Source: Pseudomonadaceae bacterium (lineage in GTDB: Bacteria > Pseudomonadota > Gammaproteobacteria > Pseudomonadales > Pseudomonadaceae). Taken from it: a stretch of DNA of 57,690 nucleotides. The stretch is from positions 1 through 57,690 of the forward strand of contig REBY01000070.1 in the NCBI GenBank assembly GCA_007692485.1, written 5' to 3'. Below, in pieces: positions 5,372-41,823 of this stretch. The notes below the pieces were generated by a model. That model made no database searches and was not told the origin of the DNA. It saw only the letters and a list, made by a program, of their open reading frames with translations. Position numbers and translations under genes: made by a program. Within the stretch, counting starts at the first letter, position 1, and the number at the start of each line of letters is the position of its first letter.

Positions 5372-5400
5372 TGAAAATCGGCTTTTGGTTTGGTGCGTCT

Positions 5401-5507
5401 GGTGCGGAGGGGTTGCCCGGTACGGGACACGCGGTGAATACGTCCCTGTAGCTCGTCTGCGGCGTCCCTGCCGCAGACGGTCCCGCACCGGGCAACCCCG
5501 CCACACC
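5401..5507 (+). repeat. Modular inverted-repeat element, copy A
   Basis: Outer arms 5401-5428 and 5480-5507 are complementary over 28 positions with 3 mismatches. Inside lies a core that starts ACACGC, contains GTCCCTG and GCTCGT, and ends in a perfect 9-bp inner stem CGTCTGCGG (5454-5462) / CCGCAGACG (5471-5479). The inner right arm abuts the outer right arm through GGTC. The core recurs inverted in copy B and, more divergently, in copies C and D, while the outer arms do not. Non-coding; the short open frames here are accidental. It faces the rlmI 3' end. Confidence 0.85.
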
Positions 5508-5580: not shown

Positions 5581-5612
5581 TGCGCGGGGTGTGCGGAGCT
5601 GATGAGGAGGTG

Positions 5613-5707
5613 TCGGGGTAGGCCTTGGCTGGACCGTCTGCGGCAGGGACGCCGCAGACGAGCTACAGGGATGTACTTGCTGCGTGTCCAGCCAAGGCCT
5701 ACCCCGA
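5613..5707 (-). repeat. Modular inverted-repeat element, copy B (opposite orientation to A)
   Basis: Outer arms 5613-5634 and 5686-5707 are a perfect 22-bp inverted repeat (TCGGGGTAGGCC...) that can be extended imperfectly outwards. The inner stem CGTCTGCGG/CCGCAGACG (5635-5643, 5652-5660) is identical to copy A. The asymmetric core 5661-5687 matches the reverse complement of copy A's core at 21 of 27 positions. The outer arms have no resemblance to those of A. It faces the 3' end of the minus-strand HAD gene. Confidence 0.85.
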
Positions 5708-5772
5708 TGCCTCTCAGGCACCCATATATGCCCCAGTAAATATCAAGAGAAGATTTCAGTCATTAGCTCGCA

Positions 5773-24353: not shown

Positions 24354-25502
24354 ATGGCTGTGCCCAACCTGAAAACCCAGTTTGCCGAGCTGCTGCAAAG
24401 CCAGTCGATCAGTTGCACCCAGCCTGACTGGGACCAGTCCAATCTGGGGGTGGTCCACCTGTTGGCAGACTGGTTGGGTGATTTGGGTTTTGCCTGCGAT
24501 ATCCAACCGATTGCGGATCACCCCGGCAAGGCCAATCTGGTTGCTACCTACGGCAGTGGCCCGGGTGGTCTGGTCATGGCCGGGCATACGGATACGGTGC
24601 CCTGCAACCCGGAGCGCTGGCAGTACGATCCGTTTCAACTGACCGAGGCCGATGGCCGTTGGTACGGGTTGGGCAGTTGTGACATGAAGGGCTTTTTCCC
24701 GCTGATTATCGAGGCGGTAAAAGGCTATCTGGATCAGCCGTTCAAGCAACCCTTGATCATTCTTGCGACGGCGGATGAGGAAAGCACCATGAGTGGTGCC
24801 CGGGCGCTGGTCGCCAGCGGCCAGCCGAAGGCGCGCCATGCGGTGATCGGTGAGCCGACGGGGTTGAAGCCGATCCGGGTGCACAAGGGCATCATGATGG
24901 AGCGGGTGGATATCGTCGGGCAGGCGGGGCATTCGTCGGACCCGAGCCTGGGCCGCAATGCGCTGGAGGCGATGCATTTTGTCATTGCTGATCTGATGAG
25001 CCTGCGCGGTGACTGGCAGAAGCGCTGGAACAATCCGCTGTTCGGGGTGCCAACGCCGACGCTGAATCTGGGCTGTATTCATGGCGGCGATAACCCTAAT
25101 CGGATTTGTGCCAAGTGTGCGCTGGAGTTTGATATTCGTCCGTTGCCGGGGATGGATCCGGATATGCTGCGCGCGGATATCCGTCAGCGGCTGGCGCTGA
25201 TTGCTGAGGAGCGGTCGGTGGATATCAAGCTGACGCCGCTGTTCCCGGGTGTGCCGCCGCTGGATACGGCCGCTGATGCGCCCTTGGTGGCGGCCTGTGA
25301 GCGGCTGACTGGGCACAGTGCAGGTAGTGTGGCTTTTGCCACCGAGGGGCCTTACCTGAATCAGATCGGTATGCAGACGCTGATTTTGGGCCCGGGCGAT
25401 ATCGACCAGGCGCACCAGCCGGATGAGTTTCTGGAAATGGACCGGATTCAGCCGACGGTGGATATTTTGCGGGGTCTGATTCGGGAGTTTTGTTTGCGGT
25501 AG
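24354..25502 (+). CDS. argE: Acetylornithine deacetylase ArgE
   Basis: A 382-aa M20-family metallohydrolase. Metal ligands are visible in VMAGHTDTVP, GLGSCDMKGF and ATADEESTMSGA, and the dimerisation domain contains HKGIMMERVDIVGQAGHSSDP. It removes the acetyl group from N-acetylornithine in arginine synthesis. GGAG lies 7 nt before the ATG. It precedes repeat copies C/D and lies 2 kb from argA, the first enzyme of the same pathway. Confidence 0.94.
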   Translation: MAVPNLKTQFAELLQSQSISCTQPDWDQSNLGVVHLLADWLGDLGFACDIQPIADHPGKANLVATYGSGPGGLVMAGHTDTVPCNPERWQYDPFQLTEADGRWYGLGSCDMKGFFPLIIEAVKGYLDQPFKQPLIILATADEESTMSGARALVASGQPKARHAVIGEPTGLKPIRVHKGIMMERVDIVGQAGHSSDPSLGRNALEAMHFVIADLMSLRGDWQKRWNNPLFGVPTPTLNLGCIHGGDNPNRICAKCALEFDIRPLPGMDPDMLRADIRQRLALIAEERSVDIKLTPLFPGVPPLDTAADAPLVAACERLTGHSAGSVAFATEGPYLNQIGMQTLILGPGDIDQAHQPDEFLEMDRIQPTVDILRGLIREFCLR

Positions 25503-25533
25503 TTGGTGCGCGTTAAACCGACTTAAGGTGCCG

Positions 25534-25690
25534 GCACGATTGGCGCTGACCGGTTCTAGACACGCCGTAAACCCGTCCCTGGGGGCTCGTAGATGCCCAC
25601 AGAAAATTGCTCCTGCATTTTCTGTGCTTCCGCCATCCCTGGCGGTCGCATGGCATCTAACGGTCTAGAACCGGTCAGCGCCAACCGTGC
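25534..25690 (+). repeat. Modular inverted-repeat element, copy C
   Basis: Outer arms 25534-25561 and 25663-25690 are complementary over 28 bp with a single mismatch. The core begins ACACGCCGTAAA, then CCGTCCCTG and GGGCTCGT. The inner stem is TAGATGCC (25590-25597) with GGCATCTA (25652-25659). It encloses two further hairpins: CACAGAAAA/TTTTCTGTG (25598-25626) and CCGCCA/TGGCGG (25630-25645). Same design as copies A and B, with an added inner module. It lies 31 nt after argE and faces its 3' end. Confidence 0.87.
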
Positions 25691-25755
25691 TTGCAAGTAT
25701 TTGAGTAGTTAGTCAGCGCCGCTAAGAAAAACGCTAATTCGATGCCAGGCTACAC

Positions 25756-25915
25756 GAGGGGCGTTGCCAGTTACCTATACCAGACCGTCGATGCACAGCG
25801 ACCGCCATGGACGGCGGAAGCGCAGAAAATGCAGGAGCATTTTTCTGTGAGTGCATCGACGAGCCCCAGGGACGGCTCGTAGCGTGTCTGGGATAGGTGG
25901 CTGGCAATGCCCCTC
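25756..25915 (-). repeat. Modular inverted-repeat element, copy D (opposite orientation to C)
   Basis: Outer arms 25756-25785 and 25886-25915 pair over 30 positions with 4 mismatches, most of them G-U type. The inner stem is a perfect 11 bp, CGTCGATGCAC (25786-25796) with GTGCATCGACG (25851-25861). The enclosed hairpin modules match the reverse complement of copy C closely. The core (GGGACGGCTCGT then GCGTGTC) matches the family on the minus strand. The outer arms are unique to this copy. It faces the amn 3' end. Confidence 0.87.
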
Positions 25916-25966: not shown

Positions 25967-27436
25967 TTACCTGAACGGTGGCTCATCAAAACTGCGCAAT
26001 TTACGTGAATGGAGGGCATTGAGTTGCCCGCGCAGCAGGTCGAGGGCGGCGATGCCGATGTGCAGGTGTTGGGTTACGGCACGCTGGTAGAAAGCGCCAG
26101 CGGCGCCGGGTAGTTTTATTTCGCTGTGCAGGGGTTTGTCCGAGACGCAGAGCAGGGTGCCGTAGGGTACGCGGAAGCGGTAGCCCTGGGCGGCGATGGT
26201 GCCGCTTTCCATATCCACGGCAATGGCGCGGGCCTGGTTGATCAACGGGCGTTCCTGCGCCCAGCGCAGTTCCCAGTTGCGGTCGTCGTAAGTCAGCACG
26301 GTGCCGGTGCGCAGGCGGCGCTTGAGTTCGTCGCCGTGCTCGCCGGTTACCTCCGCAGCGGCGGCTTGCAGGGCCTGCTGCACCTCGGCCAGTGCCGGCA
26401 AGGGAATATGCGGTGGCAGCACCCGGTCAAGAATACCGTCGCGGCGCATATAGGCGTGGGCCAATACGTAGTCACCGATGGTTTGGGATTGGCGTAGGCC
26501 GCCGCAGTGGCCAATCATTAGCCAGCAGTGCGGGCGCAGCACAGCGAGGTGGTCGGTGATGTTCTTGGCGTTCGAGGGGCCGACGCCGATATTCACCAGG
26601 GTTATGCCGTCGCCATCGCTGGCCAGCAGGTGATAGGCCGGCATCTGGAAGCGGTGCCAGGCGATGCTGTCGACTACCGCCTGCATATCGTCTTCGGCCA
26701 TGCCGCGTTCAATGATCACGTTGCCGGGTAACACCAGGCGTTCAAAGCGTGATTCGCTGAGCAGCATATCCATGCTGTAGCGGATGAACTGGTCAACATA
26801 GCGGTGATAGTTGGTCAGCAGTATCCAGGGCTGTACGTGTTGCCAGTCGCTGCCGGTGTAGTGCACCAGCCGGCGTAGCGAGAAGTCGACCCGCGGTGCG
26901 TCGAACAGCGCCAAGGGCAGGGTGTCGAGGCCTTCCCAGCTTTGCTGGCCATCAGCCGCGCGGTCGGTGATGGCTGCCAGGTCGGTGCCGGCAAAGACCC
27001 GTGACAGCTCGCCAGCCGTAATGCCGGAACGGGCCAGTTCATCGTGCGGCAACACATAGGGATAGGGGATGGGTTGGTCGCTCAGACCGACATTGAGTTC
27101 AATGCTGAAGTCGCGCAGCAGCGGTTCGAGCTGGTCAATCAAATAGGTGCGAAAGGCTTGCGGGTGGGTCACCGTCAAGCTGTAGGTGCCGGGGACCTGT
27201 ACGCGAGCGTAGGCGCGCACGGTACTGGGAGCTTCGCCTTGGGCCTGGTAGCTCAGGCGCAGTTCAGGGTAGCAGAATTGGCGTAATTGGTCGGCGCTGG
27301 GCAGGCTACGCTGGCTCAGGTAATCGTGCAGGGCTTGCTCCAGTGTTTCCGTGGCAAACAGGTAGAGCTCGGCCAGCCGATCGACTGCGTCGCTGGCACT
27401 GGTAACGGGTTGAAAGTCGAGATTGGGTGTCGGCAT
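25967..27436 (-). CDS. amn: AMP nucleosidase Amn
   Basis: A 489-aa protein of the Amn family: an N-terminal AMP-nucleosidase-specific domain and a C-terminal phosphorylase-like domain. The latter includes MIGHCGGLRQSQTIGDYVLA, AIAVDMESGTIAAQGYR and LCVSDKPLHSEIKLPG. It cleaves AMP to adenine and ribose 5-phosphate. Length is normal for the family. It lies between argE and argA, convergent with argE and divergent from argA. Confidence 0.93.
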   Translation of the reverse strand: MPTPNLDFQPVTSASDAVDRLAELYLFATETLEQALHDYLSQRSLPSADQLRQFCYPELRLSYQAQGEAPSTVRAYARVQVPGTYSLTVTHPQAFRTYLIDQLEPLLRDFSIELNVGLSDQPIPYPYVLPHDELARSGITAGELSRVFAGTDLAAITDRAADGQQSWEGLDTLPLALFDAPRVDFSLRRLVHYTGSDWQHVQPWILLTNYHRYVDQFIRYSMDMLLSESRFERLVLPGNVIIERGMAEDDMQAVVDSIAWHRFQMPAYHLLASDGDGITLVNIGVGPSNAKNITDHLAVLRPHCWLMIGHCGGLRQSQTIGDYVLAHAYMRRDGILDRVLPPHIPLPALAEVQQALQAAAAEVTGEHGDELKRRLRTGTVLTYDDRNWELRWAQERPLINQARAIAVDMESGTIAAQGYRFRVPYGTLLCVSDKPLHSEIKLPGAAGAFYQRAVTQHLHIGIAALDLLRGQLNALHSRKLRSFDEPPFR

Positions 27437-41565: not shown

Positions 41566-41641
41566 TCCGCGATAGCTCAGTTGGTAGAGCAAATGACTGT
41601 TAATCATTGGGTCCCAGGTTCGAGTCCTGGTCGCGGAGCCA
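41566..41641 (+). tRNA. tRNA-Asn (anticodon GTT)
   Basis: A 76-nt cloverleaf. The acceptor stem TCCGCGA pairs with TCGCGGA. The anticodon stem AATGA/TCATT holds the loop CTGTTAA with GTT at 41599-41601. The T-arm has GGTTCGAGTCC, and the CCA end is encoded. Confidence 0.97.
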
Positions 41642-41654
41642 TTTGGTACAAGAT

Positions 41655-41731
41655 CGGGGTATAGCGCAGTCTGGTAGCGCGCCTGCTTTGGGAGCAGGAT
41701 GTCGGGAGTTCGAATCTCTCTACCCCGACCA
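41655..41731 (+). tRNA. tRNA-Pro (anticodon TGG)
   Basis: A 77-nt cloverleaf. The acceptor stem CGGGGTA pairs with TACCCCG. The anticodon stem CCTGC/GCAGG holds the loop TTTGGGA with TGG at 41689-41691. The CCA is encoded. Second tRNA of the operon, 13 nt after tRNA-Asn. Confidence 0.97.
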
Positions 41732-41747
41732 TCTTGAATGAGCATAC

Positions 41748-41823
41748 GGGTCGTTAGCTCAGTTGGTAGAGCAGTTGGCTTTTAACCAATTGGTCGTAGG
41801 TTCGAATCCTACACGACCCACCA
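41748..41823 (+). tRNA. tRNA-Lys (anticodon TTT)
   Basis: A 76-nt cloverleaf. The acceptor stem GGGTCGT pairs with ACGACCC. The anticodon stem GTTGG/CCAAT holds the loop CTTTTAA with TTT at 41781-41783. The CCA is encoded. Third tRNA of the operon. Confidence 0.97.

Follow-up and report, generated by a model that had tools for sequence, protein, structure and literature searches.

Inverted branched repeats between argE and amn belong to a dispersed gammaproteobacterial family and may carry a CsrA/RsmA-binding RNA

What are the two inverted elements that lie between the convergent genes argE and amn in this Pseudomonadaceae genome, and which of their strands, if either, is kept for its fold? 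The original prediction, made from the letters of a 57,690-nucleotide stretch of contig REBY01000070.1 (the window), had placed in this gap two elements, C and D, of the same family as another pair, A and B. Arm complementarity and folding confirmed C and D as two elements of one family in opposite orientation, with the ACACGC end of C directed towards argE and that of D towards amn. Their parts are given below with the flanking genes and elements A and B; the folding strand is the strand opposite to that carrying ACACGC, as will be seen from the mismatches in the outer stem P1.

24354 to 25502, plus strand: argE, acetylornithine deacetylase, left flank (NF003474)
25529 to 25695, plus strand (ACACGC strand): element C; folding strand minus
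25529 to 25561, plus strand: 5' arm of outer stem P1 of C, variable in sequence, pairing with 25663 to 25695 (33 nt, 91% complementary)
25559 to 25589, plus strand: core of C, GACACGC...GCTCG, with the P2 hairpin; loop at 25575 to 25580, GTCCCT, which is AGGGAC on the folding strand
25598 to 25626, plus strand: inner module hairpin 1 of C (CACAGAAAA..TTTTCTGTG); 25611 to 25614 is an AGGA loop on the folding strand
25630 to 25645, plus strand: inner module hairpin 2 of C (CCGCC/GGCGG); loop ATCCCT, which is AGGGAU on the folding strand
25660 to 25665, plus strand: ACGGTC of C, junction and foot of P1
25663 to 25695, plus strand: 3' arm of outer stem P1 of C
25756 to 25915, minus strand: element D, inverse to C; folding strand plus
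25802 to 25817, plus strand (folding strand): inner module hairpin of D, CCGCC-AUGGAC-GGCGG
25822 to 25849, plus strand (folding strand): inner module hairpin of D, GCAGAAAAUGC-AGGA-GCAUUUUUCUGUG
25861 to 25879, plus strand: P2 hairpin of D; loop at 25868 to 25873, AGGGAC, on the folding strand
25967 to 27436, minus strand: amn, AMP nucleosidase, right flank (TIGR01717)
5392 to 5504, plus strand: element A, short form, with two GGA loops on the minus strand
5610 to 5722, minus strand: element B, short form

The predicted folds of both elements were very stable, with z-scores of -11.7 for C (167 nt) and -11.4 for D (166 nt), and 0 of 200 shuffles was equally stable in either case. When the C/D gap was scanned, no promoter-like site and no T-rich tail beside C or D was found, and the single terminator-like site lies outside both elements. 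The corresponding gap is element-free in two sister genomes: the two stop codons stand 12 nt apart in G425 and overlap in G388. On the contigs of G402 and G413, argE and amn are not adjacent. An unrelated CCCCTCTCCC-type hairpin repeat occupies the gap in another sister genome, G372 (L207, G372:C1:94250-94850), and the same convergent gap is taken by different palindromic repeats in different species. Elsewhere in the window, three consecutive tRNA genes lie at 41566-41820.

The longer inner part attributed to C and D was borne out as a 60-nt stretch (25598-25657 in C and 25790-25849 in D, 88% complementary in inverse) that holds the CAGAAAA hairpin and the CCGCC/GGCGG hairpin and is missing from A and B. 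The original prediction described it as nearly identical between these two copies; the inner part is indeed shared, but it marks a subtype and is not a property of this pair. Seven complete copies of the module were found in the own genome and one in G425, the module of C being 0.88-0.89 identical to that of D and 0.83-0.88 identical to other copies, and the module of D being nearer to four other copies (0.91-0.94) than to that of C. The long form carries three GGA loops (in P2, in the CCGCC/GGCGG hairpin and, as AGGA, in the CAGAAAA hairpin) and the short form two, so that the inner module reads as one additional GGA hairpin. The idea that subtypes pair only with their own kind did not survive: C and D share the module yet differ in P2 hairpin type, the members of all four units of one pair in G372 (described below) differ in P2, and for five of the seven module-bearing copies of the own genome no partner was found. 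At these four units (L173, L174, L175 and L176), P2 stems swap whole (TAC/GTA versus CCC/GGG) between near-identical copies. In one G372 copy (L217:820-1000) the inner module is apparently inverted inside the hairpin P3, so that its GGA loops come to lie on the other strand; the module may move on its own.

Copies of the family occupy at least 58 places in the own genome, as compiled from model, pattern and blastn-type searches; the figure includes truncated contig-end copies, leaves out two short contig-end fragments (C122 and C147) and is a lower bound, 150 of 903 candidates having been scored in the model search. The search model was built from an alignment of 19 short own-genome copies; of the 57 rows given by the model search, five show a copy a second time, on its opposite strand. 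The pattern search of the own genome gave 49 matches against one for the reversed control. Elements measure approximately 100-170 nt and fold into three helical arms, consisting of a ~60-nt core with the conserved GACACGC, GCTCG and ACGGTC and of ~20-bp arms; two hairpins of variable sequence stand on a long stem that varies as well. Most searches required GACACGC, GCTC(G) and the TCC of P2, whose invariance is therefore partly by construction; no such requirement was placed on the P3 loop, the stems or the ACG that precedes GTC. The bases after GCTCG vary among copies, and several type I copies have GATTAA-like left and TTAATC-like right flanks in common.

Covariation was analysed on the folding strand of 62 non-redundant copies of one length class (88 in the class; 215 passing the arm filter), with one row from the own genome. 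Over 36 pairs, 95.1% of positions were paired. Two-sided changes numbered 826 (238 in shuffles), and the covariation score reached 0.907, compared with 0.189 for shuffles and at most 0.173 for slid versions. Measures that count pairs or types were unexceptional against the shuffles (30 versus 28.9 and 115 versus 110.2). The pairing percentage of P1 is in part a product of the filter, since a copy entered the set only if its outer arms paired (11/16). No such selection acted on the two inner hairpins, of which P3 was 94.2% paired with two-sided changes in seven of seven pairs, and P2 was 91.9% and 99.5% paired.

The mismatches in the outer arms then showed which strand is kept. Read on the ACACGC strand, the 39 own-genome copies had 39 A.C, one G.T and ten other mismatches, and 161 copies from other genomes had 197, 29 and 134 respectively, giving 236 A.C to 30 G.T over 200 copies. 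Counted per copy, 122 had more A.C and ten had more G.T. The excess was also seen in the 81 copies whose arms are <60% alike (A.C 83, G.T 11, other 72) and in the 62-copy set, in which rows favoured A.C over G.T by 28 to 6 (p = 2e-4); in this set it was confined to P1 (55 to 10), with P3 at 5 to 3 and P2 at 0 to 3. An A.C on the ACACGC strand is a G.U (or G.T) on the opposite strand, so it is the fold of the opposite strand that is under selection. Thus the folding strand is the one opposite to ACACGC, and not the strand described in the original prediction. An earlier candidate, a palindrome kept at the DNA level (19 own-genome copies had seemed free of one-sided outer-helix changes), was dropped, as the mismatches are mostly A.C and hence G.U on the other strand. 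In 213 of 274 distinct cores the well-paired arm ends at GTC and in 13 it pairs elsewhere; the other 48 lack any 12-bp arm pairing at 9/12 or better, 11 of them because the sequence stops. The 13 copies that pair elsewhere than at GTC showed hardly any asymmetry (14 to 11, with 35 other mismatches).

Of 196 copies, 192 have TCC at the centre of P3 on the ACACGC strand and one has GGA; the P3 stem varies freely, and this loop was not demanded by any search. P2 carries an NTCCNT hexaloop in 185 of 197 copies, a count that is not independent because most loci were fetched with a pattern requiring TCC. On the folding strand the P2 and P3 loops are A-N-GGA-N closed by C-G, and at least two CANGGANG occur on that strand in 166 of 200 copies and on the other strand in two, the P2 one being demanded by the search. 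According to the accessible text of PMC7652899, CsrB repeats read CAGGA(U/A/C)G, the SELEX consensus for CsrA is RUACARGGAUGU, mostly placed in six-base hairpin loops, and the CsrA dimer offers two RNA-binding surfaces. This 12-mer is present exactly in eight of 200 copies on the folding strand and in none on the other. Nineteen of the 20 genomes tested, among them the own genome, encode CsrA, and the exception, G343, is 85% complete.

The GGA hairpin loops, which correspond to the CsrA/RsmA site, the presence of CsrA in nearly all of these genomes and the precedent of the TwoAYGGAY RNA lead us to favour, tentatively, the reading that C and D are copies of a REP/BIME-like dispersed gammaproteobacterial repeat that carries a transcribed structured RNA bound by CsrA/RsmA, a reading that the sequences and predicted folds make quite possible. 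The RNA would be a three-way junction composed of a long P1 of free sequence closed by GAC/GUC, the hairpin P3, and P2 with a UUYAC-type bulge; in the long form, two hairpins would replace the tip of P3, giving two hexaloops and one AGGA loop. The folding strand would be transcribed by read-through from either gene or independently, and its GGA loops would be held by a GGA-loop protein, most probably a CsrA/RsmA dimer taking two at once. In this way the element would tie up CsrA/RsmA, or protect and tune transcript 3' ends, and repeat load would be linked to a global regulator.

Several results sit uneasily with the CsrA/RsmA-binding reading. The C/D gap offers no promoter-like site, the strand asymmetry is found in P1 only, 48 of the 274 cores have no well-paired arm and the arms that pair off GTC are hardly asymmetric. 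The sister genomes G402 and G413, both among the 20 tested, encode CsrA without any pattern match, and the apparently inverted inner module of L217 puts GGA on the other strand. The P3 stems, at 7-8 bp, are longer than those of most SELEX ligands, which have at most four contiguous pairs in the accessible text of PMC7652899. A cis role in the 3'-UTR for one strand gains no support, since copies in co-directional gaps have no clear orientation bias (11 in the sense of the gene and six against in the own genome; 16 same and 16 opposite in 80 named loci), and a 3'-UTR element acting in the gene's sense was set aside on this ground. The lack of a promoter-like site in the C/D gap likewise speaks against a cis role.

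Like CsrB, RsmX/Y/Z and other CsrA/RsmA-binding RNAs (PMC7652899, PMC12047976), the element has several GGA hairpin loops per molecule, with at least two A-N-GGA sites in hairpin loops as judged from sequence and predicted fold. As presented in the accessible text of these sources, however, CsrB and RsmX/Y/Z are few dedicated sRNA genes, whereas the present copies are dispersed, with a three-way junction, a long variable clamp stem and predicted binding. The TwoAYGGAY RNA, RF01731, is likewise a small structured RNA with two GGA-type loops and a predicted CsrA binder (PMC2864571, PMC4333381); unlike the present element, it is not called a dispersed repeat in the accessible text of these papers, and we found no match to it at the gathering score in the window, at E<=5 for C and D or at E<=1 for seven other loci. 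Rfam gave only chance-like matches below the gathering score for C, D and other loci (miRNA families, PhotoRC-I and Ysr224). No published description of the element was found in the open-licence literature, and one may exist elsewhere. An extended form of the CsrA/RsmA-binding reading, which we consider unlikely on balance, is that the family is a mobile domesticated sponge: its tens to hundreds of copies, with two or three GGA loops each, would form a genome-wide CsrA/RsmA titration array, spread singly or as outward pairs, with a further GGA hairpin gained as a module. Repeat load would then set the free CsrA/RsmA pool.

The selected fold could also be that of single-stranded DNA, as in an alternative that we regard as possible but doubtful, namely a non-autonomous mobile element on whose folded DNA single strand a transposase acts, as RAYT/TnpA-REP does on REPs. 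The junction and loops would then be recognition signals and the outward pair a mobile unit with two hairpin ends, and no RNA role would be needed. Folding of one strand and the indifference to gene orientation fit such an element, as does the patchy spread. An exact 31-base core pattern occurred in 20 of the 369 class genomes, which come from many families and include the own genome (0 control matches), and in four of 59 genomes of the family, all of the own genus (0 of 53 outside it). Within that genus, two of six genomes, G402 and G413, had no exact match. In the phylum 13 of 398 genomes (own included) had the pattern, all within the own class. A 30-base form gave 247 matches in one Xanthomonas and 36 in one Stenotrophomonas genome, and the scan of named genomes found, among the matches listed, Stenotrophomonas, Xanthomonas, Shewanella, Marinobacter, Microbulbifer, Halopseudomonas, Haliea, Alteromonas, Erwinia and others.

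The pairs, too, behave as units. Among at least 120 named stretches listed, copies <450 nt apart were arranged outwards, (+-), in 24 cases, (-+) in three, (--) in three and (++) in none, in agreement with the predicted recurrence of the outward pair; the 24 are not independent, as ten come from Xanthomonas. Twelve of the 24, from several genera among the stretches listed, have start-to-start spacings of 184-201 nt. In G372, 14 of 22 exact-pattern copies form seven (+-) pairs, one of which is a 303-bp unit with sharp ends at four loci, and Xanthomonas has units of 282 and 400 bp (two measured copies), some of them in alternating arrays (L247 and L261). These recurring pairs and sharp-ended units at several loci indicate that the outward pair is a recurrent, dispersing unit. 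One composite stands in opposite orientation at a site common to G372 and L314, as a transposing element might. Pairing is not the rule in the own genome, however, where eight of the 58 compiled places lie in pairs <450 nt apart: A/B, C/D and C85:7213/7495, all (+-), and C132, (-+). Of the other 50 places, 15 are within 450 nt of a contig end and may have lost a partner because such repeats break assemblies, and 35 are single as far as the searches show; pairs were present in three of the 15 own-genome convergent gaps with copies. The predicted paired layout thus held as to orientation, the pairs being mostly outward, and did not hold as to number, single copies being commoner in the own genome. 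One of the 24 outward pairs, in Xanthomonas (L288:560-760), is a fused double core in which two inverse P2 halves share one P3, perhaps a collapsed pair.

The transposase itself was harder to place. A Y1 transposase match was present in 18 of 18 element genomes searched, but no clear element was seen beside the Y1 genes (34 of 69 Y1 matches, up to ~1.5 kb on each side), where only loose partial pattern matches occurred, in L356, L358, L377 and L192. Moreover, G425 has elements with no Y1 match, and G402 and G413 have Y1 with no pattern match. No orientation switch was found between the chromosome halves of Stenotrophomonas (9:4 versus 16:7, with the origin assumed at position 1), no target duplication was established and no match was obtained in the plasmids (two queries), phages (one query) and viral contigs searched. 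In G795, the Stenotrophomonas maltophilia SJTL3 genome behind L278, the two strands carry 25 and 11 matches, and the ratio is similar in both halves of the chromosome. A RAYT/TIRYT partner is unsupported by the 34 Y1 loci. A transposon with its gene inside the pair was also considered and rejected, as nothing transposase-like was seen between copies in G134, L273, C83 and C65: an apparent type II secretion/pilus ATPase gene separates the two copies in G134, apparent metabolic genes separate those in L273 (both read from translations), and the C83 reading frame has no Pfam match. In contig C65 (L105:217-1650) two same-direction copies stand around a zinc-type dehydrogenase gene in a cassette-like layout.

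Known mobile repeats were compared on the same points. REPs, as described in the accessible text of Di Nocera et al. 2013 (PMC3733652), have a single stem, measure 20-40 bp and are tagged by GTAG or CGTC, and their wobble pairs have been read as a hint of transcription. The present family resembles REP/BIME/REPIN elements, in that account, in that it is scattered between genes and mostly downstream of them, occurs as single copies or in inverted dimers and clusters, and has variable stems with compensating changes; intergenic inverted dimers and alternating clusters are thus found here, although most own-genome copies have no partner found. Unlike these elements, it lacks a GTAG or CGTC end tag, its flanks being GACACGC (demanded by the search) and ACGGTC, it is a three-way junction of ~100-170 nt with two or three GGA loops instead of a single 20-40-bp stem, and no Y1 gene was found alongside in the 34 of 69 Y1 matches. 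Because tag, size, single stem and Y1 association all differ, we do not file the element as a REP/BIME, although its lifestyle is alike. The TIR repeats of TIRYT genes, which in the accessible text of PMC3733652 are moderately abundant, partly self-complementary, often dimeric and reported from Stenotrophomonas maltophilia, resemble it in these respects; they flank a Y1 transposase, whereas the 34 Y1 loci here have no clear element. They are the nearest described candidates in a comparison by description only, and the family may be identical with one TIR family. Sharp boundaries and dispersed near-identical copies (the G372 unit at four loci and the Xanthomonas units) are as in a MITE, with neither parent transposon nor target duplication identified. 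The role of REP-like repeats is an old open question, and the present family keeps a branched GGA fold on one strand while its stems drift.

The siting of the copies bears on a second alternative, distinctly unlikely in our view, by which the element is a strong 3'-end hairpin sited past stop codons and serves one or both genes by terminating transcription or by blocking 3' exonucleases. Gene calls in the own genome and in the named loci were home-made, from codon scores. The predicted preference for convergent gene ends was upheld but is not exclusive: of 40 own-genome places with both neighbours called (18 others have no called neighbour on one side), 18 are convergent, 17 co-directional and five divergent. 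Beside at least one called gene end lie 35 places. For 34 of them the closest stop codon is 24-117 nt away, whichever way the element points, and for one it is 371 nt away. In the named loci, of which 80 of the at least 120 listed stretches were used for siting and all for pair spacing, 56 copies (both members of a pair being counted) gave 21 convergent and three divergent, whereas among 193 background gaps of at least 80 bp 46 were convergent and 34 divergent; these 56 copies were left from 91 copies after omission of 35 (seven in a called frame, 24 at an edge and four with far neighbours). This enrichment in convergent gaps and avoidance of divergent ones, the closeness to stop codons and the very stable folds of C and D are what a 3'-end hairpin would give. 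However, the C/D gap lacks the T-rich tail that follows the hairpin of an intrinsic terminator, G425 and G388 do without an element between argE and amn, and such a hairpin leaves the conserved GGA loops on free stems and the one-strand wobble unexplained.

That the repeat is a functionless palindrome kept nearly perfect by template switching or arm-to-arm gene conversion is highly improbable, for although whole stems have switched between near-identical copies (the TAC/GTA and CCC/GGG types above, and CAAGTAC/GTA versus TGAATCC/GGA), A.C outnumbers G.T by 236 to 30, an imbalance not expected from arm copying, which also leaves the conserved unpaired loops unexplained.

A further arrangement was seen at L342:1501-2760, where six same-direction copies form a tandem array with a 226-229-bp unit; in most of the repeats a GTAGGAGC REP-like palindrome lies within the unit as well.
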